A stretch of DNA of 45,368 nt from Caulobacterales bacterium (GCA_016234625.1 JACRBD010000281.1:1-45368); one strand, 5' to 3'. Shown: positions 6,618 through 24,072, counted from the stretch's first letter. Translations and numbers: made by a program. Notes: a model not told the origin generated them from the letters alone.

Positions 6618-6674
6618 GTGCAAGCTCTACCCGCCCACCGTCTCTCCGTCGCACCTATGATGGACTGGACGTAG
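6618..6674 (+). pseudogene. dusA: Displaced 5' end of dusA (VQALPAHRLSVAPMMDWT-stop), putative attL
   Basis: In-frame LSVAPMMDWT as in intact dusA (23104-23133) then TAG; GTG start with GAGGAA upstream. Confidence 0.75.
6657..6670 (+). repeat. Left 14-bp direct repeat (ATGATGGACTGGAC) of putative dusA island
   Basis: Exact match to 23119-23132. Confidence 0.8.
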
Positions 6675-6910
6675 TTTTTAATAAATTCAAGTAGTTACGT
6701 GGAATGGTGTGCGCGGACTGCACACGGATGTTCGCGTTCTCTCTCGCTTTCGTTCTCACGACGTGCGCCGCTCTGCTCCGAACTTCCACGCAATTGTTCG
6801 TGGCAGACCGCTGTGTCCCTCACCCTTGGCCGGAGATGCGACGCGAGCTGGGCAGTCAGAAAATGCACCGCTCGGTAAATTTTCCGATCAGATCCCGCTT
6901 AAGCTGGATA

Positions 6911-6980
6911 GTTGTCCCGTTCGGGATAACTTTTGACTTCGGAAAGACATTAGTCGATAAATGCCCCGAACGGGATAATT
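6911..6980 (+). promoter_or_regulatory. hipBA promoter flanked by two palindromic operators
   Basis: GTTGTCCCGTTCGGGATAAC (6911-6930); TTGACT (6933-6938), 17 bp, GATAAA (6956-6961); ATGCCCCGAACGGGATAATT (6961-6980). Confidence 0.65.
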
Positions 6981-6985
6981 GGGCT

Positions 6986-7216
6986 ATGGATCCTTCTATC
7001 ATCGGCGACGCCGTCCGGCGCGCCCGCAAGGGCATGGGCTTGCGGCAGGACGAACTGGCCGCCGCGGCGGGCGTCGGCCTGAGATTTCTCGTGGAACTGG
7101 AGCGGGGGAAGCCGACCATTCAGCTGGGTCGTACCCTCGCGGTTCTGGCCGCGGTCGGCCTCGACCTGAGTGTCGTCCCGCGTCAGGCGCCGCCCGGTGC
7201 GGCGCTGCCGTCATGA
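6986..7216 (+). CDS. hipB: HipB-like XRE antitoxin
   Basis: MDPSIIGDAVRRARKGMGLRQDELAAAAGVGLRFLVELERGKPTIQLGRTLAVLAAVGLDL. Confidence 0.88.
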   Translation: MDPSIIGDAVRRARKGMGLRQDELAAAAGVGLRFLVELERGKPTIQLGRTLAVLAAVGLDLSVVPRQAPPGAALPS

Positions 7217-8466
7217 CCAAGTCACTTTCCGTATGGTGGGACGGCAGCCAGGTCGGTCTCCTGCGGATCGACGAGCATGGCGATCTGGCCTTCACCTATG
7301 GAGCCGACTGGCTCGCCGATCCGCGAAGACCCGCCGTATCCTTTTCGCTGCCTCGACGCGCCGAGCCGTTCAATCGCCGGGAGACGCGACCCTTCTTCGC
7401 CGGGTTGCTTCCCGAGGAAGGTCAGCGCGAGGCGGCGGCGCGGGCGCTCGGGGTTTCCAAGGCCAACGATTTTCGCCTGCTCGAGCGACTCGGCGGAGAC
7501 GTCGCCGGCGCCTTGACCCTGTGGCCGGAGGGGGAGGCGCCGCCCGCACCGCGTGATCTGGCGGTCGCCCAGCCGCTGGACGACGACGGGCTGCTGAAGA
7601 TCATCGACACCCTGCCGACCCGGCCCTTCCTGGCTGGCGACGAGGGGGTGCGTCTGTCGCTTGCCGGCGCTCAGCAGAAGCTTCCGGTCGTGATGGTCAA
7701 CGGCCGCATCGCCTTGCCCGTGCCCGGACAGCCGAGCACCCACATTCTCAAGCCTCCGATCACCGGCCTGCCATCGACCACAGAGAATGAGGCGCTTGTC
7801 CTGCGCCTCGCGGCGGCGATCGGTCTGCCGACCGCGCCGGCGGAGCCACGTCGAACGGGAGATCGGCCCTATCTTCTGATCGAACGATACGACCGGACCG
7901 TCGGCGCCGACGGCGCGATTCGAAGGTTGCATCAGGAGGACTTCTGCCAAGCGCTCGGCATAGCGCCCGAACGGAAATACGCATCGGAGGGCGGTCCGAC
8001 GTTCGCGCCATGCTTCGACCTGCTTCGCCGCGCTTGCGCCCAGCCCGCGCCGGCCATCTTGCGCCTCCTCGACGCGGCCATCTTCAATGTCGCTGTCGGC
8101 AACGCCGATGCGCACGGGAAGAACTATAGCCTGCTCTATCGCCCGGAAGGGATAGGCTTCGCGCCACTGTACGATCTGCTTTGCACGGCGGCCTATCCTG
8201 AAGTTCACGCGAAGCTGGCGATGAAGATTGGCAAGCGGGCGAGCTTGGAAGAGTTCACGCCCGATACCTGGAGCGATTTCGGGCGCGAGATCGGCATGAG
8301 CGCGCCGTTCGTGCGTCGCCGCGTGGCCGCCCTGGCGGAGTTGATTCTGGCGCGCGTCGAAGGCGTGGCCGGAGAGATATCGGCGGCCGGCTTTGAGGGG
8401 GCTGAACTGCGCCGGTTCGTGACCATCGTCCGCAGGCGGGCCCAGACACTTCTCGACAAGACCTAG
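7213..8466 (+). CDS. hipA: HipA-type kinase toxin
   Basis: 417 aa; FAGLLPEEGQREAAARALGVSKANDFRLLERLGGDVAGAL, SLAGAQQKLPV, GNADAHGKNYSLLY; ATGA overlap with hipB. Confidence 0.93.
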   Translation: MTKSLSVWWDGSQVGLLRIDEHGDLAFTYGADWLADPRRPAVSFSLPRRAEPFNRRETRPFFAGLLPEEGQREAAARALGVSKANDFRLLERLGGDVAGALTLWPEGEAPPAPRDLAVAQPLDDDGLLKIIDTLPTRPFLAGDEGVRLSLAGAQQKLPVVMVNGRIALPVPGQPSTHILKPPITGLPSTTENEALVLRLAAAIGLPTAPAEPRRTGDRPYLLIERYDRTVGADGAIRRLHQEDFCQALGIAPERKYASEGGPTFAPCFDLLRRACAQPAPAILRLLDAAIFNVAVGNADAHGKNYSLLYRPEGIGFAPLYDLLCTAAYPEVHAKLAMKIGKRASLEEFTPDTWSDFGREIGMSAPFVRRRVAALAELILARVEGVAGEISAAGFEGAELRRFVTIVRRRAQTLLDKT

Positions 8467-8472
8467 AGCCGC

Positions 8473-9395
8473 GTGCCGCCCAAGCGTTGCGAAAAGCATT
8501 CACCGAGCGAGGGGCCGGCTTCAGGAATGGCCACCGTAACCGCCACCTCTCCCGCTGCCACGAAGGTGGGTCTATTCAGAAGCTTGTTCCGAGGGCGAGA
8601 AGACGTGTTTCCCAGCCGGTGGGAGAACTCAAAGACCGGCAAGGCCGGATACGCACCGGTTTGCCGGAACGAGTGGGTTCGAGGCGTTTGCGCGAAGCCC
8701 GCGGTCAAATGTGGTGAATGCGCCAATCAGGCCTTCGTCCCGATAACGGACGATATCGTGGCCGCTCACCTGAAGGGCAAGAGATCCAACGGAGCGACCA
8801 ACTTCACCATCGGGGTCCACAGAGACCCGCCATTCAAGCGCTCTACGCCGAGCTCGCCGCTGACCCCGCCCGGAACGACCTGATCTTCGAGGACATCCTC
8901 GCCGCGCTGGAGGCGGGGCGTTCGCCCCTCGTGATCACCGAGCGCAAGGACCATCTGGATCTGTTGTCCGAACGCCTGTCGAAATTCGCCAGGAATGTCG
9001 TCGTCCTGCGAGGCGGGATGGGCGCGCGGGAGACGCGGGCCGCCGCCGATCGGCTGTCGGCGATCCCCGACGAAGACGAAAGGGTGATCATCGCCACCGG
9101 CCGCTATCTCGGCGAAGGTTTCGACGATGCCCGGCTGGACACGCTGTTCCTGACCCTGCCGATCTCCTGGCGGGGGACATTGGCCCAGTACGCCGGCCGC
9201 CTTCATCGGATGCATGCTGCAAAGCGCGATGTTGTCATCTACGACTATTTCGACGCGGACGAGCCCATGCTGGCTAAAATGGCCGCCAAGCGTGAGGCTG
9301 GCTACAGGAGCCTGGGCTACATGGTGGCGGTGGGCCGCGAGGCCGGCGATCAGGCTGTCAGAGCCGCCCGAGCGACCGCAGGCTCCGGAGCATGA
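8473..9395 (+). pseudogene. Decayed TOTE-type primase-helicase: N-terminal fragment joined out of frame to helicase C-terminus
   Basis: Frame 1: LFRSLFRGREDVFPSRWENSKTGKAGYAPVCRNEWVRGVCAKPAVKCGECANQAFVPITDDIVAAHLKG; frame 3: ALYAELAADPARNDLIFEDILAALEAGRSPLVITERKDHLDLL...ATGRYLGEGFDDARLDTLFL...YAGRLHR. Confidence 0.8.
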
Positions 9396-12223
9396 TCCGT
9401 CGCCAGGGCGGCGACCAGCCGCATGGTTAACCGGGCTAGTTCGGCGGCTTCGGCGGGTGTTGGCGCCGCGGCGCCCGGCCGCAAGATCGCCAGGACCTGC
9501 TCGGCCTCCACGGACAAGCCGCTCTGCTTCAAGAGGTCGAGCACCTGTTCGGCGATGGTCGATGAAGGGGCCGCCGCCTCTCCAGCCGCCCTCAGGCGCG
9601 CGGCGACGGCGTAGCGTAGCGCCTTGGCGAGCAACGGGGGCGCCTCCTCCGGAAACCCGCCGGCGGCGAGCACGCGGGCCATCCTGATTGCTCGTTCCGC
9701 TTCCTCGCGCCAGGCATCGTCATGTTCCGTGGCGTTGTTCGCCGCGTCCGGCTCGCCGAACTCGGGCGAGACATGCAAGATCCGGCGCCCCCCGCCAGTC
9801 AGGTCAAGCACACCCGACCGCGCCAGCCGGCGAAGCGTCAGCCACGTCGCGCGGTCGAGAACCTCCACGGGCAAGCTGGCTGCGTCCTGACGCCGGCTCA
9901 GACGTTCGGTCTCGCCGGCGAGACCATCGGCATCGAGGTCCAACACCGCAAGCACCCGTCGAGCGCCGCCGGGGCCGGTCTGGACTTCGATCCGCAATGC
10001 CCGCTCGCCATGGCGCAGGCGCAGGTCCACGGCGAGGGCGTCCTCGGGCGAGACGATTTTGGGCCCGAGGCCGTCGGCGGCCTCCAGCATGGAGCGCATG
10101 CGATCGACCAGTGCGCCCCTGCCGGAGGGCATCTTCAACGCGCCGATATCGCCATGGCCGTCCAGCAGGCCATCGGCCAGCACCTGCTTGACGTTCAGGA
10201 GGTGCAGGATCGCGTGCTCGATGCTGCCTTCGGTGACCAGATTGATCACCGCCACCGGGCGGGTCTGATGCTTGCGCCACGCCCTGGCGATGCGCTGTTC
10301 TAGCTTGGCCGGGTTCCACGGCAGGTCGATATTGATCACGGCGCTGGCGGCCTGCAGATTCAGGCCGACGCTGCCGCTGTCGGTGGACAGGAACAGCCGG
10401 CAATTGGGGTCGTTCTTGAAACGATTGATCTCTTCTCGGCGGCGAACCTGCGGGACCGAGCCCGTATGCCAGGCCGCCTCGACGCCCAGTTCTCCGGCCA
10501 ATTCCCGCACCAGCCCCAGCATCCGCTCCCATTCGGAGAAGATGATGATCTTGCGGTCGGGCTCCTGCAGGAGGTCGCCAAGAATACCCTCCAGCTCCTC
10601 CAGCTTGGGGCAGACGCGGCAGTCGGGGTCGAGGATGGCGGGCGTGTCGCAGATCATCCGCATGCAGGCCATGAGCATCTGCATCTTGTCGAACTCGGCC
10701 GGGGACAGCGGCCGGCGCTGAGCGATGGCGGCAAGCCTGGCCAGCGGAGTCCGATACTCCTCGTAGCGGTCCGCCTGCTCGGGGGCCATCGGCACGAAGT
10801 AGTTGGTCACCGTGCGTCCGGGCAGCTCGGTTTCCACATCCGATTTGCGGCGGCGTAGCAGCACCGGCGCGACCCGGCGGCGCAGTTCGGCGAGGTTGCG
10901 GTACTCCACCGGCCGTCCGCGCTCGTCCAGTTCATAGAAGCTGCGGTTGAACTGGAACAACGGCCCGACCAGTTCCGGATCGAGATATTGGATGATGGAA
11001 TAGAGTTCGTCGATGCGGTTCTCCACCGGCGTGCCGGTGAGCACGAAGGCGTATGGCGAGCGCAGCGACTTGACCTTGCTGGCCGTCTTGGTGCGCCAGT
11101 TCTTGATCCGCTGGGCCTCGTCGAGAACGACGATGTCCGGCGTCAGCAAGTCGTTGATCGCCTCGGCGTCGCTGACCACCTGTTCGTAGTTGACGATGGT
11201 GAAGAACGGCGGGTCGCGGTAGGCCAAGAGCCGCGCCGGGCGAGGGCCGAACACTGATCGGGTCGGCCGTTCGGTGAAGCGGGCGATCTGCTCCTCCCAC
11301 TCCGCCTTCAGGGACGCGGGACAGACCACCAGCACCCGCTCCACACCCTTGCGGCGGGCCAGCAGTTCACAGGCGGCGATCGCCTGGACGGTCTTGCCCA
11401 ACCCCATCTCGTCGGCCAGCAGGGCGCGCTCGCCAAAGGCCAGGTGCGCCATGCCTTCCCGCTGATAGGGCAGCAGGGGATGGCGCAGCATGTCCAGAAC
11501 CGCGGGATCGCGTTCGACCTCGGTGGCGAAGGCGGCGCGCGCCTCCAGTCGCGACCGTTCCCGCCGATGGCGGTCCAGCCAGGGGCCGAAGTGGCGCGAT
11601 AGACGCAGCAGGTCCCGCACTGGCGGCGGAGCGTCCGCATAGGCGGCGAGGAGGCTCTCGATGTCGCCTGGCTCGAGGCTGAGCTGGCCGCCGGGGGTCA
11701 GCCAGGGCGACAGCCAGGCGCGGACCATGCTGGACTCGCCGCCGCCCACGCGCGGGCAGGTAACCACCGGCGTCGGCGCTCCCGTCCGGCGAAGGAAGAC
11801 CTCGACCCGCCCTGAGCCCTTGGCGACCGCCTGGCGGAAGGCGCGAACGCCACGACGGCGCAGGCCTGCCAGCACGCCCTCGATGTGCTTGCACGTCCCT
11901 AGCCCGTTCACCCGGTGGTCGATGCAGCCGCAACCGTTCTCAAGGCCGTCCAGGGACCGGATTTCGACCTCATAAACGGTCCCGCTCTCCGACCGCGTCC
12001 GGAACGTCCCGAAGAAGGGATGCTCCATCTCCATGGCCTCGACGGTGGTGATCTCAGTGCGCCCGCGCCAGCGCCGCAACTCGATCTCGTGCTCGTCGCT
12101 GGTGTCCCAGCCCAGGGGCGCGGCCGGCCGCTCGAGGACGGTTCGCGCCCGCCCGCCTTTCCGCGAGCTCTTGCCCGGAGAGCGCGTCGATGGGGAGGGT
12201 TTGATCACCCGATCTGCTTGCAT
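9350..12223 (-). CDS. SNF2-family DEAD/DEAH helicase with SWIM-type zinc finger
   Basis: 957 aa; CGCIDHRVNGLGTCKH (SWIM), LLADEMGLGKTVQAIAA (Walker A), VVLDEAQRIKN, STDSGSVGLNLQAAS, QRIARAWR. Confidence 0.93.
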   Translation of the reverse strand: MQADRVIKPSPSTRSPGKSSRKGGRARTVLERPAAPLGWDTSDEHEIELRRWRGRTEITTVEAMEMEHPFFGTFRTRSESGTVYEVEIRSLDGLENGCGCIDHRVNGLGTCKHIEGVLAGLRRRGVRAFRQAVAKGSGRVEVFLRRTGAPTPVVTCPRVGGGESSMVRAWLSPWLTPGGQLSLEPGDIESLLAAYADAPPPVRDLLRLSRHFGPWLDRHRRERSRLEARAAFATEVERDPAVLDMLRHPLLPYQREGMAHLAFGERALLADEMGLGKTVQAIAACELLARRKGVERVLVVCPASLKAEWEEQIARFTERPTRSVFGPRPARLLAYRDPPFFTIVNYEQVVSDAEAINDLLTPDIVVLDEAQRIKNWRTKTASKVKSLRSPYAFVLTGTPVENRIDELYSIIQYLDPELVGPLFQFNRSFYELDERGRPVEYRNLAELRRRVAPVLLRRRKSDVETELPGRTVTNYFVPMAPEQADRYEEYRTPLARLAAIAQRRPLSPAEFDKMQMLMACMRMICDTPAILDPDCRVCPKLEELEGILGDLLQEPDRKIIIFSEWERMLGLVRELAGELGVEAAWHTGSVPQVRRREEINRFKNDPNCRLFLSTDSGSVGLNLQAASAVINIDLPWNPAKLEQRIARAWRKHQTRPVAVINLVTEGSIEHAILHLLNVKQVLADGLLDGHGDIGALKMPSGRGALVDRMRSMLEAADGLGPKIVSPEDALAVDLRLRHGERALRIEVQTGPGGARRVLAVLDLDADGLAGETERLSRRQDAASLPVEVLDRATWLTLRRLARSGVLDLTGGGRRILHVSPEFGEPDAANNATEHDDAWREEAERAIRMARVLAAGGFPEEAPPLLAKALRYAVAARLRAAGEAAAPSSTIAEQVLDLLKQSGLSVEAEQVLAILRPGAAAPTPAEAAELARLTMRLVAALATDHAPEPAVARAALTA

Positions 12224-12330
12224 GACGGGATGCTAGCGGTGAGGGCCGAGTCCCTCAACGACCGTCTGGGGGTTGAGGGGCGCCGCGCGTCTCGTCATGT
12301 TGGGAAGGCGAACGGGAAGGAGATGCGAGC

Positions 12331-12576
12331 ATGGCCAAGGACAAGCTGGTCCCCGACACGGACAGGATCGACGACGCCGTTCTGGCGCTGCTCCATCTGG
12401 GCCTTCACGACGGATTTCGGGCCTGGAAGGGCTTCGACTGGGAGACGATGAACCGGCTCCACGAGAAGGGTATGATCCGCGATCCCGTCGGTAAGCCGAA
12501 GTCCGTGGTCTTCACGGAGGAAGGCCAGCAGCGGGCCGAAGAGCTGTTCGCGGCGATGTTCACCAAACAGTCCTGA
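12331..12576 (+). CDS. DUF6429 family protein
   Basis: DTDRIDDAVLALLHLGLHDGFRAWKGFDWETMNRLHEKGMIRDPVGKPKSVVFTEEG. Confidence 0.85.
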   Translation: MAKDKLVPDTDRIDDAVLALLHLGLHDGFRAWKGFDWETMNRLHEKGMIRDPVGKPKSVVFTEEGQQRAEELFAAMFTKQS

Positions 12577-12599
12577 TCGTTCCCTCGACCTTGGGCTTT

Positions 12600-12866
12600 G
12601 GTCCCTGCGCCGTCGTCCTCCACGTCGTTCAAGGTCGCATCGCTCAGTTCGTTCACAAGGGTGATCCGGCGGCGAGTGATCTCGTACTTGTTCAGCGCCG
12701 CCCGGTCCTCCTTGAAGGCCCCTTCCACCGCGAACATCATCGTCGGCGTCATGCTGGCGCCGCGGAAAAAAAGCAGCGTGTCCTTCTTGGACCTGCAGAG
12801 CAGGGGAATTGTATCGACAAGCTGAGAGAGCAACTCGGGCGGATAGTGGAAGCGACCGTGCAGCAC
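12600..12866 (-). pseudogene. N-terminal remnant of a predicted restriction-endonuclease-family protein
   Basis: FHYPPELLSQLVDTIPLLCRSKKDTLLFFRGASMTPTMMFAVEGAFKEDRAALNKYEITRRRITLVNELSDATLN; ORF then runs antisense into DUF6429. Family assignment from memory. Confidence 0.45.
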
Positions 12867-12926
12867 AAATCCCTAGATGCCAGGCGGCATAATACCCGAG
12901 AAAATGAACGACATAAAAACCTAGAA

Positions 12927-14507
12927 ATGATACAGCGGAAAAGCCGAAAAATCATCCATGCTCTCTTGGACTCCATGCCCACCCCGTCTGAACGGCTCGC
13001 CCTGGCGCTCGAGGCGCTTGACGCCCTGCAGACGCAGGGACGCCACGCTATTCGGTCCAGGGATCTCAGCCGCGCCCATCGCGAGCTGTTGCTGAAGCAG
13101 GGCTTTCTCCAGGAGGTGATGAAGGGCTGGTACGTCGTTGCCCGGCCAGACGTGGAGGCGGGCGAAAGCACGGCCTGGTACGCATCCTACTGGGATTTCT
13201 GTCGCGACTATCTCACCGAACGATTCGACGCGGACTGGTCCCTGTCGCCAGAACAATCTCTCCTCCTCCACGCCGGCAATTGGAACGTCCCGCAACAGCT
13301 GTTGGTCCGCGCGCGACGCGGCGGCAACCAACTCATGGGGCTGCCGCACGGGACGTCGCTGCTGGACGTCAAACTCAAGCCGCCGAGCGGCGCGGATATG
13401 GCCGAAGTGGCGGGCTTGCGGCTCTACGCGCCGGCCGCCGCCCTGATCCATGCCTCGCCACAGGTCTTTCTGAACCATCCCACCGAGGCGCGTACTGCGC
13501 TGGCGACCCAGCGCGACGCCTCCGACCTCCTGGCGCGCCTCCTGGAAGGTGGACGCAGTGTCGTAGCGGGACGATTGGCAGGGGCCTTCCGCAATATTGG
13601 CCGGGATCGCGAGGCCGACGATATCCTCCACGCCATGCGGGCGGCCGGTTATAACGTCCGCGAGAAGGATCCGTTCGATCGTGAGCTTCCGCGGATCGAA
13701 TACCAGCGCGAGCCCTCGCCCTATGTCCACCGCATCCGGCTACTCTGGCAGAAGATGCGCGCCGACATCGAGGGTCGCTTTCCGCCGCCGGCGCCGGCCA
13801 ACGACATCGACGCCTATCTACGGGCTGTCGATGACGTTTATGTCACCGACGCCTACCACTCGCTCTCAATCGAGGGCTATCGCGTCAATCGCGACCTCAT
13901 CGAACGGGTGCGCGGCGGCGTCTGGGACCCGGATGCCGACGACCGGGACCGCGCCCATCGGGATGCCCTGGCGGCGCGGGGGTACTGGCAGGCGTTCAAC
14001 GCGGTGAAGGCCAGCGTGCGGCAAGTGCTGGAGGACGCCAATCCGGGAGCCGTCGCCGACCGCGACCACGGCGTCTGGTACCGCGAACTGTTCGCTCCGA
14101 GCGTTACGGCCGGTTTGCTGAAGCCCGCCGACCTGGCCGGCTATCGCAACGGCCCTGTCTACATTCGCCGCTCGCGCCATGTCCCGCTCAACGCCGACGC
14201 GGTGCGGGATGCCATGCCTGTCTTCTTTGAATTGCTGGCGGCCGAGCCGGATCCTGCCGTGAGGGTGGTGCTCGGCCACTTCATCTTCGTCTACATCCAT
14301 CCTTACTTCGACGGGAACGGCCGCACGGGGCGGTTCCTGATGAATGTCATGATGGCGGCGGGGGGCTATCCCTGGACCGTTATCCCGGTCCAGTCACGGA
14401 CCCGCTATATGGCTGCATTGGAGGCCGCCAGCACCGAACAGGACATCGGCCCATTCACGGGTTTCATCGCGGAGCTGATCGGCCAGCCGACCGCGCCGGC
14501 GCTCTGA
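12927..14507 (+). CDS. Fic family protein with N-terminal AbiEi-like winged-helix region
   Basis: HPYFDGNGRTGR (14298-14333); SLSIEG inhibitory-type motif (13860-13877); N-term LEALDALQTQGRHAIRSRDLSRAHRELLLKQGFLQEVMKGWYVVARPD. Alternative start 12975. Confidence 0.9.
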   Translation: MIQRKSRKIIHALLDSMPTPSERLALALEALDALQTQGRHAIRSRDLSRAHRELLLKQGFLQEVMKGWYVVARPDVEAGESTAWYASYWDFCRDYLTERFDADWSLSPEQSLLLHAGNWNVPQQLLVRARRGGNQLMGLPHGTSLLDVKLKPPSGADMAEVAGLRLYAPAAALIHASPQVFLNHPTEARTALATQRDASDLLARLLEGGRSVVAGRLAGAFRNIGRDREADDILHAMRAAGYNVREKDPFDRELPRIEYQREPSPYVHRIRLLWQKMRADIEGRFPPPAPANDIDAYLRAVDDVYVTDAYHSLSIEGYRVNRDLIERVRGGVWDPDADDRDRAHRDALAARGYWQAFNAVKASVRQVLEDANPGAVADRDHGVWYRELFAPSVTAGLLKPADLAGYRNGPVYIRRSRHVPLNADAVRDAMPVFFELLAAEPDPAVRVVLGHFIFVYIHPYFDGNGRTGRFLMNVMMAAGGYPWTVIPVQSRTRYMAALEAASTEQDIGPFTGFIAELIGQPTAPAL

Positions 14508-14747
14508 TATCCAGGATTTCATTGCGGCAGGGACAGGGCGTGCGACGTTTGGCGGCGGCGCTCCGGCGAACCGCGCCTGCGTCTCCCGGTGGTCGTCGCG
14601 GAAGCTGACAGTCGGCGCTCGCCAATGCGCCCAATGAAGAGGCGCGCTTCGCGAGCGGCGCCGCTACCGCCCAGCTACACCACGTCCGGGGGCACGATCT
14701 CCGAACGCGACTGGCCGCTTGCCCTTCGATGGCCGGCGCTCGCCCAA

Positions 14748-15626
14748 CTAGGACGCAAGGGGAAGGCCCGCGATCCGGCAGAACATACCCTCTGGATGGA
14801 ACGCGACCCGCACCTGGGTTCCATCGCCCGACAAGGCCCGTTCGATGAGCTGTGATCCAAAGCCGCGGTGGGTCGGCGCGCCTACGGCGGGGCCGCCATG
14901 TTCGCGCCACTCGAGCTGCAGGCTGCTGTCGCTTCGCCGCCGCCAGCAGACCGCGACGCGGCCTTCGCCGTTGGAAAGGGCGCCATGCTTCAGCGCATTG
15001 GTGGCCAGCTCATGCAGGACCAGGCTCAGCGCCGGCGCGGCGCGGCCCTGGATCACCACGGAGGGGCCCCACGCGTCACAACGGTCCTGTTGACCGATCG
15101 CGGCGAAGGTTCGACCGAGGATCGCCTGGACGTCATTGTCCACCCCATCGACGTCATCGCCGAACCGCCAGCCCTCGGCCATGGCCGACAGGCGGGCGGC
15201 CAGGATCGTGCGGGCGTGGGTGAGAGATTGGGCGGTCCGCAGGGTGCGTGAGGCGATGGCCTGGGCCACGGCGATGATGTTGCAGGCCCGGTGGTTCAAT
15301 TCCCCGATGATCAGCCCGGCCATGTCTTCGCGCCGCCTACGCTCGCTGATGTCGATCATGACGCCGCAGACCCGGCTGCACCGACCCGCGTCGAAGAGGC
15401 CTCGGCCGTAGACGGCCACCCAGCGCCGGCCGCCGGCTTCGGCGCCGACCTGGCACTCCTCCGAGACCGGCGACCTCAACGCCGGATCGGCGGCCGCGGC
15501 TACCGCGTCGCGCAGCCGGGCCTGGTCGCGTTCATCCAGCGCATCGAATGTAACATCGCCCGGAAGGCGCCACGGCATCCGGCCGCCCGTGGGCTGATAG
15601 TCCCAAAAGCCCAGATCGGCGATCAT
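14748..15626 (-). CDS. PAS-domain HWE-family sensor histidine kinase
   Basis: GLIIGELNHRACNIIAVAQAIASRTL, LSLVLHELATNALKHGALS, GFGSQLIERAL; start overlaps upstream stop (ATGA). Confidence 0.88.
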   Translation of the reverse strand: MIADLGFWDYQPTGGRMPWRLPGDVTFDALDERDQARLRDAVAAAADPALRSPVSEECQVGAEAGGRRWVAVYGRGLFDAGRCSRVCGVMIDISERRRREDMAGLIIGELNHRACNIIAVAQAIASRTLRTAQSLTHARTILAARLSAMAEGWRFGDDVDGVDNDVQAILGRTFAAIGQQDRCDAWGPSVVIQGRAAPALSLVLHELATNALKHGALSNGEGRVAVCWRRRSDSSLQLEWREHGGPAVGAPTHRGFGSQLIERALSGDGTQVRVAFHPEGMFCRIAGLPLAS

Positions 15627-16405
15627 TTCACGTCTCCCGTCAGATTGTGGAGGGGTTGCTGGCTGACCGTGATCAGGCCTCTGCGCGGGCGGTCGAAGTC
15701 CTGGATCTGCAGAATGACGGCGGCCAGCAGCAGGCTGGCGACGATCGAGGCGGTCGCCGGTCGCCCGCCGCCCAGGCCGGCCTTGTAGCCGTTGAGGCCC
15801 AGGGCCGCGGCGGCCAGCAGGTAGAGCAGCAGGAAGACGGCCTCCGGCACGTGACTGCGGTCGGCGGTCAGTCGCTTCTCGACCATGTCTTCGAGATCGT
15901 TCACCGCCTGGATGAACAAGCCGTTGGGGATCGAGCGGGAATCCAGAGCGGCGACGGCCACCGCCTGGTCCCATAGCCGCCGTTGCAGTTCCATCGATTG
16001 GGCCGCGATCTGGCGCTGGGCGCCGGGGCCGCGGTCCTCGACGGTGAGGCGCACCTTCAGATAGTCGTCCAGGATGCCGGCAGCCACGTCGGCCTGAGGC
16101 CGGGGCAGCATTTCGGCGCGGTTTCGCGCCGTGCCGAGGGCCAGGGCCTCCTCCAGCACGAAGGCCTTGCGTGTGTCGTAGCGACTGACCGCCACGGAGA
16201 AGGTGAAGCTGATCATCAGGGTGACCAGGCCGAGCGCCGTCCCCTGCAGTGTCCCGATGGCGCCGGACCTGTCGTCTCGGCCGCGCGCGGCGGAATGCAG
16301 CCCGGCCCGCTGGCCCAGCCAGGCGCTGGTCAGCAGCGCCGCGACGCTGACCGGGAACACGATCCACTGGCTGACGCCATACAGCCACTCGGTCGCGGCG
16401 ATCAT
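15623..16405 (-). CDS. DUF4239/bestrophin-like integral membrane protein
   Basis: 260 aa with N- and C-terminal TM pairs; GTLQGTALGLVTLMISFTFSVAVSRYDTRKAFVLEEALALGTARNRAEML. Confidence 0.72.
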   Translation of the reverse strand: MIAATEWLYGVSQWIVFPVSVAALLTSAWLGQRAGLHSAARGRDDRSGAIGTLQGTALGLVTLMISFTFSVAVSRYDTRKAFVLEEALALGTARNRAEMLPRPQADVAAGILDDYLKVRLTVEDRGPGAQRQIAAQSMELQRRLWDQAVAVAALDSRSIPNGLFIQAVNDLEDMVEKRLTADRSHVPEAVFLLLYLLAAAALGLNGYKAGLGGGRPATASIVASLLLAAVILQIQDFDRPRRGLITVSQQPLHNLTGDVK

Positions 16406-16845
16406 GGCCGGACCGCCGTTTGCGTCGCGGTGGAAGCGGAGGCGGCGGCGCCGACCTCGACCAGCCCGCCGGTCGCCGTGACCGAGGTGGCGTTGGCGCT
16501 GAGCGCGCCGGTGTTTTGCTGTTCAGCCTCGACGGCCACGTCGACGACGCTGTTGTCGCCGACGACAACGGTGATGAGGTTCATGTTGGCCACCGAGCCG
16601 ACGCTGGGCAGGCCCCCGAAACCGCCGCCGGATGCGGTGGGTCCGCCCGGGAAGCCGCCGGGCCGGCCGGCCTGCTCGGCCTGCCACATCGTCACGGCGC
16701 GGCCGGTCGCGGCGACATTGCCGTGAACCCCGTAGTCCCAGGGGTGGCTGTTGAGACGGTCGTCGGCGCGGGCGGCGGAACCGCCCAGCAGCGCGCAGCC
16801 GATGACGAACGCCAGCGGCGCTCGGGTGAAATCAGTCATGGACAT
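16402..16845 (-). CDS. Small secreted protein, putative surface/holdfast-like substrate
   Basis: 147 aa, signal peptide ending GGSAARA; Gly-rich then NLITVVVGDNSVVDVAVEAEQQNTGALSANATSVTATG; ATGA overlap with next gene. Confidence 0.6.
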   Translation of the reverse strand: MSMTDFTRAPLAFVIGCALLGGSAARADDRLNSHPWDYGVHGNVAATGRAVTMWQAEQAGRPGGFPGGPTASGGGFGGLPSVGSVANMNLITVVVGDNSVVDVAVEAEQQNTGALSANATSVTATGGLVEVGAAASASTATQTAVRP

Positions 16846-16902
16846 CGCTTTCCAGATTGAGGGGACCCGGAGACAGCGCCGCCGCCTCCGGGTCCAACGA
16901 GG

Positions 16903-17739
16903 CTAGAGACCCGGAACCAGCGTTCCGACGCGGGTGGTCACGCCGGCCAGGTTGCCGATGGCGGTCGCCGTGGCGCTGGCGATCGGCCGGTCCAGGGCGC
17001 CCATGTTGCTGGCGCTGTTCAGGGTGACGCTGGTGGCGGCCGTCGCGTCGGTAGCGCCGATGCTCAGCTGGGCCAGGTCGGCCGCCATCAGGGCGTTGGT
17101 GACATAGCCGCCGGTGGGGTCGGCGCCCGCCAGCTCGGCCGGCGGCGCCGCCAGTTCGAGGCTGGTGGTGTTGCTGACCGCGCGGGCGTCGGACGAAGCG
17201 GTGGCGTCGATGACCCCGACGGCGCTGGCCGTGGCCGAGGTCTGGTGCGGCGTCAGAAAGCCGGTCCCGGCGTCCGCGATCATGCCGTCGGCGTAGGCGT
17301 AGTTGGGATTGGCGGCCAGGGGATCGGCCACCGAGGGAACCGCGCCGGAAGTGGGTTCGACAGCGCCGGCATGGAACTGCCCGACATCGACCGAAAGCGG
17401 AACCTCCGAGCCGGCGCTATAGACGTTGGCGTAGGCTGAGGCGCTGGACACCATGTGACCAAGGTCGGTTCCGCCGTCCAGGGGGCTGGTCGCGGGAAGC
17501 ACGATGGCCTGGCCGTCGGACTGGGCGTTGATGTCGCCCATGTAAATCTGACGGGCCTGTAGCGTCGCCTGGCCGGTAGGCAGGGCCACCAGGCTGGAGG
17601 TGGTGACGTTGGTGCTGGTGTCGGTGCGGGTCAGCACCCAGCTCCAGTTGACGGTGTCGAAGGCCAGGGCCGGGCCGGCCATCAAACCAAGAACGAGGGC
17701 GGCGGAGGCCGCGCCCGCGCGAAGGGATCGGGAGGTCAT
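16903..17739 (-). CDS. Secreted Ala/Ser/Thr/Asn-rich protein, putative surface/holdfast-like substrate
   Basis: 278 aa; signal peptide MTSRSLRAGAASAALVLGLMAGPALA; low-complexity beta-type composition. Confidence 0.62.
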   Translation of the reverse strand: MTSRSLRAGAASAALVLGLMAGPALAFDTVNWSWVLTRTDTSTNVTTSSLVALPTGQATLQARQIYMGDINAQSDGQAIVLPATSPLDGGTDLGHMVSSASAYANVYSAGSEVPLSVDVGQFHAGAVEPTSGAVPSVADPLAANPNYAYADGMIADAGTGFLTPHQTSATASAVGVIDATASSDARAVSNTTSLELAAPPAELAGADPTGGYVTNALMAADLAQLSIGATDATAATSVTLNSASNMGALDRPIASATATAIGNLAGVTTRVGTLVPGL

Positions 17740-17765
17740 GGGAAGGTCTTTCCGTTGGGGAGGGT

Positions 17766-18593
17766 TTATGAAGGACGAGCCGTTGCGCCGTCCTCGGTGA
17801 GGCGACATTCGGGATTTGCGGCCAGGCCGAGGTAGTCCGTCATGATCTGATGGACGGCCATCTCGGCGACTGACCGGACGCCGAGCTGCAACGGCTCGTT
17901 CCGGATACGTCCGGCGTCCAATTCGATGAGGTTGGAGCCAAAGAAGCGGAAGACGTTGGCCTCCACCTCGCGGCCGACGATGCGTTTCTGCAGGCTGGAG
18001 ACGTAGACGACCTCAAGTGTGCGGGCGTCGATCAGGCGAAGGTCGAGGGCGACATTGACCACCACCCGCTTGCCGCCGCCGCCGACGCCCTTGATCCACA
18101 GGCCGACGCCGTCGCTGACGATGTTGTAGTTGAGCTCGGTCAGGGCGCCGGCGACGATGAAGTCCGCGCCGCGTACGGCGCCGGGCCTGATGGGTTCGCC
18201 CGCCAGGCCGCCCTTGCGGAACATCAGCTCCTGGTTGGCCACGCGCAGGTCGGCCCGCTCCAGCAGACGCACCTTGCGGGTCTTGTAGAAGGCGCTGATC
18301 ACCATCTCGGTGGCGCCCTGGCTGAGGGCGTAGCCGTGATCGGCGACGCTGAGCTGACCGGTCTTGTCGACGATCTCGCCGACCGCCAGCGAGGGCAGGT
18401 TGTCCCCGGGCCGGGCGGCGAGGGCGGACAGGCAATGCGAGTAGGGCGTGGCGTTGCTGCTGACCGGATAGGCCGAGGCGTCGTCGCCCGCCGAGGCGGG
18501 GAAAGCCGCGCCGAGGGTGAGGAGCATCGCTGTGGTCGCGAAGGCCGCCACCGGGTTGCGGTCTCGCCATGAAGCTGTTGCTGCGTTTTTCAT
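17766..18593 (-). CDS. CsgG/HfaB-like outer-membrane secretion family protein
   Basis: LAVGEIVDKTGQLSVADHGYALSQGATEMVISAFYKTRKVRLLERADLRVANQEL...GADFIVAGALTELNYNI...VVVNVALDLRLIDARTLEVVYVSSLQKRIVGREVEANVF. Confidence 0.82.
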   Translation of the reverse strand: MKNAATASWRDRNPVAAFATTAMLLTLGAAFPASAGDDASAYPVSSNATPYSHCLSALAARPGDNLPSLAVGEIVDKTGQLSVADHGYALSQGATEMVISAFYKTRKVRLLERADLRVANQELMFRKGGLAGEPIRPGAVRGADFIVAGALTELNYNIVSDGVGLWIKGVGGGGKRVVVNVALDLRLIDARTLEVVYVSSLQKRIVGREVEANVFRFFGSNLIELDAGRIRNEPLQLGVRSVAEMAVHQIMTDYLGLAANPECRLTEDGATARPS

Positions 18594-18753
18594 GACGGCT
18601 ACCTACCGCCACGATTTCCGCCTGAGCGGGCAACCGCCACCGCATCGGCGCCAATGGTCAGGATCGCTCCGAACCGGCGTCACCCGCCGTGAAACCGGCG
18701 CTTGCGGGAGTCTAAGGCATGGAGGCCGATCCCCGGCGCAGGAGCCTTGAGCC

Positions 18754-19938
18754 ATGTCCGCACAGCGCGTTCTTATTGTCGATGACGATCCGGAGTTCGC
18801 CGCCCTCCTGGCCGAGGGGCTGACCGATCGGGGTCATCCCTGCCGCACCGAGAGCGACGCCGCCCATCTTGGCGCGGGCGCCTGGGCCTGGGCGGACCTG
18901 GCGATCGTCGACCTGCAACTGGGCCGAGGGCAGGATGGGCCCCAGGTCCTGCGCCGCATGCGCCTGCTCAAGACGAGGCCGCGGATCATCCTGGTCAGCG
19001 GCTTCGATGTCATGGTGTTGGCGGCGGCGAGCCGGGCGGCGGGCGAAATGGGCTATGAGATGGCAGGGGCCTTCGCCAAGCCCGTCGCCATCGGGGCCCT
19101 GGCCTCGGTCGTGGCGGCCAGGCCTGTCCACGATCCCCAATCGGCCCGCAAGCGCTCGCCGGTGACCGCGGATGACCTGGTCCAGGGGCTGGACCGCCAG
19201 GAGATCAGCGTCGTCTTCCAGCCGAAAGTGGCCCTCGCCGACGGCGCCTGCGCGGGCTTTGAGGCGCTGGCCAGGTGGTCCTCTCCCGTGCTGGGCGAGG
19301 TTTCGCCGGACCGTTTCGTCACCGCCGCTGAAGTCTTTGGCCTGGCCGAGCGCCTGACCATGGCCGTCTACACACAGGTGTTGAAGACCGCCTCGGCCTG
19401 GGCCGCCGTGGGATTCGCGCCACCGATCTCGGTGAATCTTTCAGCCGAACTGCTGCCGGCCGATGGTCTGGTGGAAGCGCTGCTGGACCTGACAGCCCGC
19501 TTCGACGCGCCGCCCACCCAGATCACCTTCGAACTGACCGAGACCGCCGCCATGCCCATGCGTGGACGGGCGCTGGAGGCGGTTACCCGGCTGCGGCTGG
19601 CCGGGTTCGGTCTGTCTCTCGACGATTTCGGCATGGGCGAGAACCGCTTCGAGCGGCTGCTGGGTCTGCCGCTGACCGAGGTCAAACTCGACCAACGCTT
19701 CGCTCAACTGGTCACCAGGCCGCATGGCCGGCGGCTGGTCAGCGGCCTCGCCGCCTTGATCCGTGGCCTGGGGGCCGTCTGTGTCGCCGAAGGCATCGAG
19801 GACGAAGCGCAACTGGAGGCGTTTCGAGACGCCGGCTGCGACATCGGCCAGGGCTGGCGCCTCGGTCGGCCCCTGGCCGCGCCGGAGCGTTGTGTTGAGT
19901 TCGCCCGCGCATCTCACCATGCCGCCGTTAAACACTGA
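18754..19938 (+). CDS. Response regulator with EAL domain (c-di-GMP phosphodiesterase)
   Basis: REC VLIVDDDPEF / AIVDLQL; EAL: GFEALAR, ISVNLSA, FELTE, LDDFG, VKLD, AEGIED, GQGWRLGRPL. Confidence 0.9.
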   Translation: MSAQRVLIVDDDPEFAALLAEGLTDRGHPCRTESDAAHLGAGAWAWADLAIVDLQLGRGQDGPQVLRRMRLLKTRPRIILVSGFDVMVLAAASRAAGEMGYEMAGAFAKPVAIGALASVVAARPVHDPQSARKRSPVTADDLVQGLDRQEISVVFQPKVALADGACAGFEALARWSSPVLGEVSPDRFVTAAEVFGLAERLTMAVYTQVLKTASAWAAVGFAPPISVNLSAELLPADGLVEALLDLTARFDAPPTQITFELTETAAMPMRGRALEAVTRLRLAGFGLSLDDFGMGENRFERLLGLPLTEVKLDQRFAQLVTRPHGRRLVSGLAALIRGLGAVCVAEGIEDEAQLEAFRDAGCDIGQGWRLGRPLAAPERCVEFARASHHAAVKH

Positions 19939-19978
19939 TCTTTCCAACAAGTTCACCTAAGCCCCGTAGACGCGATCG

Positions 19979-20887
19979 ATGACAGCCTTTCAAACCCTGG
20001 TCGTCGAGGACGACCCTGCCTGCGCCGAGGCGCTGGGCGAACTCCTGAACGACGCCGGATATCAGACCCGCCACGCCGCCGATCCCGGACAAGCCATGGT
20101 CGCCATGGCCCGCGACGCCGCCGTCGGCATTGTCGTTCTTGATTTCCATCTGCCGGAAATGGACGGCCTGCGGCTGCTGCGTGAACTGCGCGCGGCCGCC
20201 AGCGAGCGGGGCAGCTCGATCCAGGTTCTGCTCTGCTCCGGCGCGGCGGGCATGGCCGACCTGGACGCCGCCATGCGCCTGGGCGTGGCGGCCTATCTTT
20301 CCAAGCCGATCGAGCGGGCGGCGCTGCTCAACGCCATGGCCGACGCCGCCAGGCGCTACCGCGACCTGGAGGCCGACCGCACGGCCAGAAGCGCGATGAT
20401 CGGTCATTTCCGCACCCTGGAAGACGGTCTCATCCAGGCGTCGCGACAGATGTCACAGCTGCTGGATCTGCCGGCCGCGCCATCATTGGCCGACCCGGAG
20501 TCAGCCCCGGGCTTTGGCGCCGCTCCGGCGCCGGGCGTTGATCGAGCCTGGCAAGCGCTGCAGTGCGACCGTCTGCTAAAGGAGGCGCGGCTGATGGATC
20601 GCCTGCTGGCGCGGGCGGCCATCGACAGCGCGGAATGGCGCGTCCTGCTGGCGCTGCGGGAGGCTGATCTGGGCGGCGGGGCGGCTTCGGCCACCAGCAT
20701 CGCCCTGGCCTGCGGGGCCAGCGCCACGGCAGGCCTCAGGCGGATCGCCGCGCTGGAAGGGCGGGGGCTTGTGGGGCGGGGAGATGACTCCAGTGACGGA
20801 CGGCGGGCCATGCTGACGCTCACCGCCACTGGACGGACCCTGTGCGGCGAGGTGATCGAGGCCATTGTCGCGGCCAGGGCGGCATGA
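19979..20887 (+). CDS. Response regulator: REC fused to MarR-like winged helix
   Basis: REC TLVVEDDPA / VVLDFHLPEMDG / YLSKPIE; C-term EWRVLLALREAD...LRRIAALEGRGLVGRGDDSSDGRRAMLTLTATG. Confidence 0.85.
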   Translation: MTAFQTLVVEDDPACAEALGELLNDAGYQTRHAADPGQAMVAMARDAAVGIVVLDFHLPEMDGLRLLRELRAAASERGSSIQVLLCSGAAGMADLDAAMRLGVAAYLSKPIERAALLNAMADAARRYRDLEADRTARSAMIGHFRTLEDGLIQASRQMSQLLDLPAAPSLADPESAPGFGAAPAPGVDRAWQALQCDRLLKEARLMDRLLARAAIDSAEWRVLLALREADLGGGAASATSIALACGASATAGLRRIAALEGRGLVGRGDDSSDGRRAMLTLTATGRTLCGEVIEAIVAARAA

Positions 20888-21486
20888 CGATCCGCACTCG
20901 CCTGATCGCCTCGATCGCCGCGATCCAGACCCTGTTTCTGATCACCATGGTCATCGCCACCCTGACCATTGGCCGGGAGGCCGCCAGCCGGCGAATTGAG
21001 GTCCAGGCCGGTCAGAAGGCCGATCTGGCGGCCATTCTTCTTCGCAAGGCCGTATGGGGCAGCGACGTCGCGGCGGCCCGCGAGCTCGCCCAAGAACTGG
21101 TCGACGGAGACGCCCTGGTCTCCGCTGTCGTGTTCGACAGGCGCGGCGCGGTCCTGGCCTCGGCGAGCGACGCCGGCCCGGCCCCCCGGCGCGCCGCCCG
21201 GGCCAGCCGGCCGATCCAGGTCGATGGCGTGGCGGCCGGGACAGTGGCGGTGGAGGTGTCGGGCGACTTTCTGGATGGCGTCCTGGCGGGGATCTATTCG
21301 AAACTCGTGCTGATCGCGGCGTGTCTCGTCCTGCTGTCGGCTGGCGCCTCCTGGATGTTCGGCAACCTGATGACGCGGCGCCTAGCGGCCCTGCGCCTCT
21401 CCGCCGAAGCCTTGGCGCAGGGGGATTTCGAGCTGCGGATGAGCGGACGGGACCGCTCGAGGTGGTCGCCGTGGCCAAGGCGATGA
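20884..21486 (+). CDS. N-terminal part (TM, sensor, partial HAMP) of a frameshifted sensor histidine kinase
   Basis: MTIRTRLIASIAAIQTLFLITMVIATLTI...MTRRLAALRLSAEALAQGDFELRMSGR, then out of frame; starts overlapping previous gene (ATGA). Confidence 0.8.
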   Translation: MTIRTRLIASIAAIQTLFLITMVIATLTIGREAASRRIEVQAGQKADLAAILLRKAVWGSDVAAARELAQELVDGDALVSAVVFDRRGAVLASASDAGPAPRRAARASRPIQVDGVAAGTVAVEVSGDFLDGVLAGIYSKLVLIAACLVLLSAGASWMFGNLMTRRLAALRLSAEALAQGDFELRMSGRDRSRWSPWPRR

Positions 21487-22646
21487 ACGGGATGGCCCAG
21501 CGCCTGGGCGGGCTCTATGCCGACATCCGCCACGACCTGGACCGCCGCAATCGCATGCTGGCCTCGACATTCGAGCACATGAACCAGGGCGTCGCCATCT
21601 TCGACGCCGAGGGCCGCCTGGTCGAGGTGAATGAGGCGTTTGCCGGCCTCATCGGCCTGCCGCCGGCCGTGATCGTCGCCGGGATCCATCTCGACGCGCT
21701 TGTGGATTTTCATGCCGAGGCCGGGGCCTACAGGGGTGGGGCCGAGGAGGAGTCTCTCGAAGCTTCGTGCCGAAGCCGGGACTGGCCGGGGCCTTCGTTG
21801 ACCTTCAGGCTGCCGTTTCCCGACGGGCGGGCGATCGCGGTTCAGCGCACCCGTCTCCCGGACGGCGGGTTCATCGCCGTCCACGAGGACATCACCCGCC
21901 AGCTCCAGGACGAACGGCGCCTGCGGCACGCCGCCAAGCTGACCACCCTGGGCCGGCTGGCCACGGCCACCGCGCATGAGCTGAACCAGCCGCTCAACGT
22001 CATCCGCCTGTCGGCCGACAACGCCGCCGCCCGGCTGGCCGCCGACACGGCGAGCCCCGAATACCTGGCGGAAAGGCTGCAACGGATATCGGCCCAGACC
22101 GAGCGCGCGGCCCGGATCATCGATCACATGCGCATATTCGGGCGGATGCCGGCGGAGGAGCCGGCGCCCTTCGACCTTGGCGAAACCGTCAGGTCGGCGG
22201 CCGAATTCTTCGGCGAGACCGCGCGCCTGCGCGGGTTGCGACTGGACCTTTGCCTGGATCCTGGCCTGATGGTCACGGGTCATCCGGCGCTGATCGAACA
22301 GGTGGTCGCCAACATCCTGTCCAACGCATTCGCCGCCCTGGCCGCCGCCGACGTCGCTTCGCCGACGGTGCGGATCGGCGCGGCGCGGCGTGGCGGCCGG
22401 ATCAGGGTCGAGGTCGCCGACAACGCCGGCGGCGTACCGGCCGACGTTCTACCCCGCATCTTCGAACCCTTCTTCACCACCAAGTCGGTCCACGAGGGCA
22501 CGGGGCTGGGGCTGTCCATCAGCTACGGCATCGTCGCCGACATGGGCGGACGGCTGGAGGTGGAAAATCGCGGCGAGGGGGCGGTGTTCTCGTTCGAGCT
22601 TCAAGCGCTGGGCGCACCGGCGCCGGCGGCTGAGGCCGCGGCCTAG
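21483..22646 (+). CDS. C-terminal part (rest of HAMP, PAS, HisKA, HATPase) of the split histidine kinase
   Basis: MNGMAQRLGGLYADIRHDLDRRNRMLASTFEHMNQGVAIFDAEGRLVEVNEAF; GRLATATAHELNQPLNVI; EPFFTTKSVHEGTGLGLSISYG. Confidence 0.85.
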   Translation: MNGMAQRLGGLYADIRHDLDRRNRMLASTFEHMNQGVAIFDAEGRLVEVNEAFAGLIGLPPAVIVAGIHLDALVDFHAEAGAYRGGAEEESLEASCRSRDWPGPSLTFRLPFPDGRAIAVQRTRLPDGGFIAVHEDITRQLQDERRLRHAAKLTTLGRLATATAHELNQPLNVIRLSADNAAARLAADTASPEYLAERLQRISAQTERAARIIDHMRIFGRMPAEEPAPFDLGETVRSAAEFFGETARLRGLRLDLCLDPGLMVTGHPALIEQVVANILSNAFAALAAADVASPTVRIGAARRGGRIRVEVADNAGGVPADVLPRIFEPFFTTKSVHEGTGLGLSISYGIVADMGGRLEVENRGEGAVFSFELQALGAPAPAAEAAA

Positions 22647-23100
22647 GAAGGGGACACGTCAGCTACTGGATGGTGGCCACATCTGATTTGTCGAGCTGAC
22701 GCCCGCCTAGTTGCAGTCACGGATTCCCGCACGTCGACCTGGGTCAGTGGCGGCTGGCGCCGCGTGTCGCGCGGGCTACGCCACCTCTGGCGACATGGCC
22801 ATTGTCTTTTCTTCAGGCTGGCCGGGCAGTCGTTCGCCGGGGTGTTTGTCCGAAACCTGTAGGTATTTTTCGGACGCTACAGACCGACGCCTTGGGTGGC
22901 GCCGGCGGCCGCTCGACGGCGCGTCCCGCCGTGCATCGTCTGTCGCGCAGGCTCCCTGCAACCACCATCAAGCCGACGCGGCGCATCCAGCGCAACTGCG
23001 GCTATTGCACATCAGTTCGCCTAACTTGCTGAAAATGCTAATCAGTCCGTCCAGTCCGACGCAGGGCCTATTTCTACATAAATTGTGTAATAAAATCAAT

Positions 23101-24072
23101 ATGTTATCCGTTGCCCCCATGATGGACTGGACCGACCGCAATTGCCGGGCGTTCCACCGTGTCCTGACGCGGCGGTCGCTGCTGTATACCGAGATGGTCA
23201 CCAGCGGGGCGGTGCTGCATGGGCCGCGGGAGCGGCTGCTGGGCTATGATCCCTCGGAACATCCGGTGGCGCTGCAGCTGGGCGGGTCGGAGCCGGCGGA
23301 TCTGGCGGCCTGCGCGAAGATCGCCGAGGACCTCGGCTACGACGAGATCAACCTCAATGTCGGCTGCCCCTCCGACCGGGTGCAGAGCGGCCGGTTCGGC
23401 GCCTGCCTGATGCGCGAGCCGGAGCTGGTGGCAGACTGCATGGCCGCCATGAAGGCCGCCGTGGCCACGCCGGTGACTGTCAAATGCCGCATCGGCGTCG
23501 ACGACCAGGATCCGGGGGAAGCCCTGTTCCGGCTGGTCGACCTGTCGGCCCGGGCGGGGGTGACGACCTTTGTCGTGCATGCCCGCAAGGCCTGGCTGCA
23601 GGGCCTGTCGCCCAAGGAAAACCGGGACATCCCGCCACTGGACTATCCGCTGGTCTATCGGCTCAAGCGCGAGCGGCCGGACCTGACCATCGTCCTCAAT
23701 GGCGGGGTGGCGAGCCTCGACGAGGCCGTGGCGCATCTGGACCATGTGGACGGGGTGATGCTCGGCCGGGCGGCCTATCACGAACCGGGGATTCTGGGCT
23801 CGGTGGACAGCCGCGTCTTCGGCGAGGGCGAGGTCGTCGATCCGTTCGAGGCGGTCGAACGCTACCGCCCCTACATGGCTGGCCGTCTGGCGGCGGGTGC
23901 TCATCTGGCCGGCATGACCCGCCACATGCTGGGCCTGTTCCACGGTCGCCCGGGCGCGCGCAGCTGGCGGCGGATATTGACCGTCGAGGGCAGCAAGGCG
24001 GGCGCTGGCCTGGAGGTCGTCGATGCGGCGCTGGCGGCGGTGGCCGAGGCGGCGGCGCGGAAGGCGGCGTAG
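23101..24072 (+). CDS. dusA: tRNA-dihydrouridine(20/20a) synthase DusA
   Basis: MLSVAPMMDWTDRNCRAFHRVLTRRSLLYTEMVT, LNVGCPSDRVQSGRFGACLM, VHARKAWLQGLSPKENR. Confidence 0.95.
   Translation: MLSVAPMMDWTDRNCRAFHRVLTRRSLLYTEMVTSGAVLHGPRERLLGYDPSEHPVALQLGGSEPADLAACAKIAEDLGYDEINLNVGCPSDRVQSGRFGACLMREPELVADCMAAMKAAVATPVTVKCRIGVDDQDPGEALFRLVDLSARAGVTTFVVHARKAWLQGLSPKENRDIPPLDYPLVYRLKRERPDLTIVLNGGVASLDEAVAHLDHVDGVMLGRAAYHEPGILGSVDSRVFGEGEVVDPFEAVERYRPYMAGRLAAGAHLAGMTRHMLGLFHGRPGARSWRRILTVEGSKAGAGLEVVDAALAAVAEAAARKAA
23119..23132 (+). repeat. Right 14-bp direct repeat (ATGATGGACTGGAC) inside dusA, putative attR
   Basis: Exact match to 6657-6670. Confidence 0.8.

Follow-up and report, generated by a model that had tools for sequence, protein, structure and literature searches.

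In Pseudomonas aeruginosa, the cup fimbriae are controlled by pairs of antagonistic response regulators, RocR with RocA1 and PvrR with RcsB (PMC2696094, PMC3842833). The cupD cluster and its regulators lie together on PAPI-1 between direct repeats, and probably arrived there together (PMC2696094, PMC3842833). The spread of curli, by contrast, has been described as mostly vertical, with horizontal transfer playing a minor part (PMC3521004). Here we describe a locus in a 45,368-nucleotide stretch of DNA from a Caulobacterales bacterium (GCA_016234625.1, JACRBD010000281.1:1-45368; ‘the window’ means this whole stretch). In it, an operon for a CsgG-family outer-membrane exporter stands divergent from three signalling genes, which encode a receiver-EAL protein (REC-EAL), a receiver-MarR protein (REC-MarR) and a PAS histidine kinase. 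The layout is real, is borne on a genomic island and is conserved in two lineages, the second being represented by a Sphingomonas metagenome-assembled genome (locus L004). On balance, we favour the view of the block as a surface-adhesin cassette that was acquired horizontally and regulates itself.

Like the PvrSR/RcsCB-cupD system of PAPI-1, the locus brings together on a mobile island an adhesin assembly cluster, a REC-EAL protein, a DNA-binding response regulator and two sensors. The two systems differ in that export is of the CsgG type here and of the chaperone-usher type there; RcsB has a helix-turn-helix of another family than MarR, its output domain being of the LuxR type; and the PvrSR/RcsCB sensors are multi-domain proteins with receiver or Hpt domains. 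The RocS1–RocA1–RocR system similarly places a sensor, an EAL response regulator and a DNA-binding response regulator on an adhesin cluster, cupC, and REC-EAL resembles RocR. Unlike the present locus, however, Roc has an unorthodox sensor (RocS1), another output structure and another DNA-binding domain, and it has not been described as island-borne. With curli and CsgD the locus shares the CsgG domain, a regulator adjoining or divergent from the export genes and a cyclic di-GMP (c-di-GMP) theme, but it has a MarR-type regulator and is mobile.

The preliminary description of this DNA placed a gap of 160 bp between the secretion operon and the plus-strand signalling genes. This is exact, with the minus-strand CsgG frame having its 5' end at 18593 and the first base of REC-EAL lying at 18754. 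Also correct was the count of kinases and receivers, two of each around a single CsgG-type secretion locus; the second kinase, of the HWE family, ends the opposite operon. The order, coordinates and domains given for the trio hold good, except that the kinase gene is split by a one-base frameshift. That frameshift, a lost lipobox in CsgG, the island in dusA and the status of this CsgG system as a second one beside a true hfaABD had all been missed. The features of the block are as follows.

14748-15626, minus strand: PAS/HWE histidine kinase, last gene of the CsgG operon (HWE_HK 1.3e-10; 37% identity to the L004 HWE kinase)
15623-16405, minus strand: bestrophin-like/DUF4239 membrane protein (PF14023 2.7e-11); absent from the L004 block
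16402-16845, minus strand: 147-amino-acid secreted protein with an HfaA-like C-terminal repeat, a candidate accessory/plug or minor subunit (L004 comparison, family alignment)
16903-17808, minus strand: 301-amino-acid repetitive secreted protein, a candidate exported subunit
17766-18593, minus strand: CsgG-family outer-membrane exporter without a lipobox cysteine (PF03783 1.8e-25; tree)
18594-18753, no strand: divergent intergenic region, conserved with L004 (local alignment)
18661-18675, no strand: imperfect palindrome GGATCG-CTC-CGAACC, a candidate REC-MarR operator and the only exact match in the window
18754-19938, plus strand: REC-EAL response regulator, a predicted c-di-GMP phosphodiesterase (Pfam EAL 1.4e-55, Response_reg 3.3e-9)
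19979-20887, plus strand: REC-MarR, a putative DNA-binding response regulator (Response_reg 7.8e-22; MarR profile match)
20884-21455, plus strand: histidine kinase, N-terminal sensor/transmembrane part, first frame (open reading frames, L004 comparison)
21456-22646, plus strand: histidine kinase, HAMP end/PAS_7/HisKA/HATPase_c part, second frame (Pfam, L004 comparison)

From the gap, the minus-strand genes run in the order CsgG, 301-residue protein, 147-residue protein, bestrophin-like/DUF4239 protein and PAS/HWE kinase, and most adjacent genes overlap by somewhere between a few and a few tens of bases. Among the plus-strand genes, the REC-MarR stop and the kinase start share ATGA at 20884; because of this overlap the trio probably forms a single operon.

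For comparison, 50 alphaproteobacterial CsgG loci besides that of the window were taken from a scan of ~85,000 species genomes. The trio was found at one of them, L004, where order and orientation are the same as in the window, and this repetition indicates an arrangement beyond chance. The L004 block consists of the signalling trio, CsgG, two putative secreted proteins and an HWE kinase. Identity to the window is 74% for CsgG, 60% for the PAS kinase, 57% for REC-MarR, 51% for REC-EAL, 54% for the 301-residue protein, 45% for the 147-residue protein and 37% for the HWE kinase. The block adjoins a tRNA-Leu gene and a P4-like tyrosine integrase. In six congeners of L004 homology stops at the 3' end of this tRNA gene, and in two of the six a different integrase of that type occupies the position, so the tRNA-Leu is an integration hotspot. 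That L004 carries the same block beside such a site suggests that the structure and its controls move together. No exact duplicate of the tRNA 3' end was found within ~58 kb downstream as a second attachment repeat, leaving the far border of the L004 island unproven. In the Sphingomonas relatives L170 and L171 the tRNA-Leu is occupied by different P4-type integrases.

Of 199 genomes in the window's family one has an orthologous REC-MarR, as has one of 401 in L004's family, and each of these is the block itself. Both copies of the orthologous trio thus adjoin a CsgG operon, and none occurs elsewhere in these genomes. The preliminary description had proposed the co-occurrence of the two halves across genomes as a check on their association, and their independent occurrence as evidence against it. 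The outcome is mixed: the secretion half stands without the trio at 49 of the 50 other loci, while the orthologous trio is found only beside the secretion half. Carriage on plasmids or phages was considered and rejected; CsgG relatives on plasmids (Photobacterium/Vibrio, Variovorax) reach at most 54% identity, and REC-MarR was found on no plasmid or viral contig.

In the window the whole block lies inside an island integrated in dusA, which is delimited by the following features.

6657-23118, no strand: dusA-integrated genomic island of 16,462 bp with one att copy counted (direct repeats, empty sites)
6640-6672, plus strand: displaced original dusA 5' end, attL side (88-93% identity to the 5' ends of the intact dusA genes in three congeners)
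23101-24072, plus strand: dusA with an island-supplied 5' end, attR side (open reading frame, repeat comparison)

Two copies of the core repeat ATGATGGACTGGAC are present, at 6657-6670 and at 23119-23132; dusA starts with the right-hand one, and the left dusA 5' fragment reads ...EPVQALPAHRLSVAPMMDWT and then meets a stop. The site is empty in L142, L143 and L146, three congeners in which the left flank is continuous with dusA. Since repeats stand at both borders and dusA is contiguous in these congeners, 16,462 bp have been inserted in dusA. As in the dusA-specific islands described previously, insertion is at the 5' end of dusA between imperfect direct repeats, dusA receives a new 5' end from the island, and the cargo is mosaic (PMC4482086). 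Unlike those islands, this one has no dusA-associated tyrosine integrase; the genome contains five integrases, none on the contig of the island (C219). Its other cargo includes a HipA-like kinase, a helicase fragment, an SNF2-type helicase and a Fic-domain protein.

The divergent intergenic region aligns between the window and L004 with a score of 47 over ~73 bp; no pair out of 1000 shuffled ones scored as high, nor did any of 297 other stretches of the window. At the place aligned with the candidate operator, L004 has a perfect palindrome, GGATCG-CCT-CGATCC, giving the shared pattern GGATCG-N3-CGA[A/T]CC. No sigma-70 promoter was found by consensus in 18594-18753, although the consensus is uninformative in such a GC-rich genome. 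Because the layout and the intergenic region recur in so distant a genome as L004, control of the surface structure by the trio, as first proposed in the preliminary description, is plausible by analogy, Roc and PvrSR/RcsCB being close precedents. Judged from sequence, the trio likely controls the CsgG operon.

At other CsgG loci a CsgD/NarL-like LuxR response regulator lies within 3 kb upstream in 33 of the 42 that have enough upstream sequence. This position is therefore normally that of a regulator, and the trio appears to replace the LuxR-type gene. Elsewhere in the class, REC-MarR has only distant relatives (22-29% identity). From a reading of open reading frame sequences, made with no family search, such relatives lie beside flagellar genes in three cases (L096, L098, L099) and beside Tad-pilus-like genes in four (L100, L103, L105, L106). 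In L096 a REC-EAL adjoins the REC-MarR.

REC-EAL aligns with RocR (PDB 3sy8) at 1.2e-50 and shares the receiver-EAL architecture of RocR and PvrR. It retains the EAL glutamate and the Asn, Glu, Asp-Asp, Lys, Glu and Gln positions aligned with RocR, which we take to be the catalytic positions of EAL phosphodiesterases, and phosphodiesterase activity is predicted. Its top NCBIfam model is PvrR, although at 210.6 bits it is well under the 580-bit equivalog cut-off. The acidic pair, phospho-Asp and Lys are retained in the receivers of both REC-EAL and REC-MarR, and the receiver Asp of REC-MarR (D55) is invariant across 12 homologues. As a family profile, the C-terminal half of REC-MarR matches solved PDB structures of MarR regulators at 2.5e-11, and the MarR wing motif D-x-x-D-x-R-R is present as D91-D94-R96-R97 (C-terminal alignment numbering); the match to Pfam MarR_2 (8e-4) is under the cut-off. 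The predicted structure has a receiver, a long helix and a winged helix, with a mean predicted local distance difference test score (pLDDT) of 86. A Foldseek search was dominated by receiver-domain matches, and the MarR half was identified by profile search instead. Profile and model together indicate that REC-MarR is a receiver joined to a MarR winged helix, with predicted DNA binding.

The frame of the PAS kinase gene switches by one base near 21450 (range 21420-21460). A tblastn search with the intact Sphingomonas kinase enters the second frame at 21420, codon-position GC content switches between ~21424 and 21514, and the second-frame part is 59% identical over 394 residues to the intact 602-residue L004 kinase. 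Because the genome is a 365-contig draft, the shift may be an assembly error, and there is a precedent in a dusA island whose apparent frameshift turned out to be a sequencing error (PMC4482086).

On the export side, the Pfam CsgG domain scores 89.9 bits against a cut-off of 20.8, placing the exporter in the CsgG/HfaB superfamily. Its lipobox reads LGAA, whereas the L004 relative has LGAC, and the cysteine is present in all 33 relatives caught by the pattern. The 301-residue protein has a signal peptide that starts at internal Met24 and belongs to a family with repeats like ATAVxNNxSI that is tied to CsgG in 42 loci; its AlphaFold2 model is beta-rich (pLDDT 73). The 147-residue protein has a weak hhalign match to HfaA (probability 89%). 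Neither protein had a Pfam or NCBIfam match to a curlin-repeat subunit, CsgE or CsgF, a further difference from curli. A tRNA-Pro called by ARAGORN at 17083-17174, antisense within the 301-residue gene, is probably spurious. Four congeners (L054-L057) have another second CsgG-like gene, 45-46% identical to the window CsgG and in a separate clade, which adjoins small repetitive secreted proteins.

If the block is a self-regulated adhesin cassette, CsgG would export the repetitive 301-residue protein, with the 147-residue protein serving as an accessory or as a minor subunit. REC-MarR would be phosphorylated by the membrane PAS kinase, bind the conserved intergenic site and set both divergent promoters. 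REC-EAL would lower c-di-GMP and thereby act against the adhesive state, in the manner of RocR and PvrR, while the HWE kinase would give the structural side a second input. Several points weigh against this model. The linkage rests on only two copies of the block. We infer co-regulation of the two halves from sequence features, and export of the 301-residue protein from linkage and repeats; the model of that protein has no fold match in the PDB. The palindrome in the window has one mismatch. Transfer from the kinase to REC-EAL is not assured, since PvrR shows no interaction with the neighbouring sensors in PvrSR/RcsCB (PMC3842833). Finally, with the kinase frameshifted and CsgG without a lipobox the local copy could be non-functional; the cassette of this genome, which has a split kinase, no CsgG lipobox cysteine and no integrase, may be partly disabled.

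These defects raise the question of whether the copy in the window is an island remnant that is decaying and has no function, which is quite possible, though we would not expect it. In addition to the frameshift and the lost cysteine, no tyrosine integrase is found anywhere on the contig, and a helicase fragment at 8718-9395 is truncated. Nevertheless the frames of REC-EAL, REC-MarR, CsgG and both secreted proteins are otherwise uninterrupted, with key residues retained, and in a draft genome the one-base shift may not be genuine. A different reading takes the halves as independent cargo, neighbours by chance on the island, with the trio governing other targets such as motility. The absence of the trio from nearly all other CsgG loci fits this, as do the REC-MarR paralogues found by flagellar or Tad-pilus-like genes without CsgG and the REC-EAL/REC-MarR pair of L096. 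However, those paralogues are only distantly related, and chance does not readily account for identical order and orientation and a conserved intergenic region in genomes of two families at two different integration sites; we consider this reading unlikely.

It is very improbable that the CsgG operon is a duplicate hfa (holdfast-anchor) locus with the trio as holdfast regulator. The resemblance is real, in that Caulobacter-type HfaABD also combines an exporter of the CsgG superfamily with secreted proteins that are small and repetitive, the NCBIfam model that fits the window CsgG best is HfaB, and the 147-residue protein has the weak HfaA-like repeat. Yet on the HfaB model (NF037935) the window CsgG reaches 164.8 bits, short of the cut-off of 300, whereas a full hfaABD on another contig of the same genome (C191) passes all three cut-offs, its HfaB at 405 bits. 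This hfaABD locus suggests that the genome is that of a Caulobacteraceae-like alphaproteobacterium. The CsgG/HfaB tree also places the window CsgG outside the HfaB clade of the genus with 100/100 support. An HfaB paralogue was rejected on these three grounds.

As a self-regulated adhesin cassette, the block would extend to CsgG-type export the theme known from cupD, that of island-borne adhesins with their own EAL and two-component regulators, and it would contrast with the view that horizontal transfer was minor in the spread of curli (PMC3521004). It yields a defined candidate family of exported proteins, the 301-residue type of the 42 CsgG-linked loci, and a defined candidate regulator–operator pair in REC-MarR and the intergenic palindrome. 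More tentatively, and with some doubt on our part, CsgG adhesin-export modules may spread among alphaproteobacterial lineages as mobile cassettes with their own c-di-GMP/MarR two-component control, the LuxR-type regulator having been swapped out, and receiver-MarR proteins may be recurrent controllers of surface structures, including flagella, Tad-like pili and CsgG exporters.

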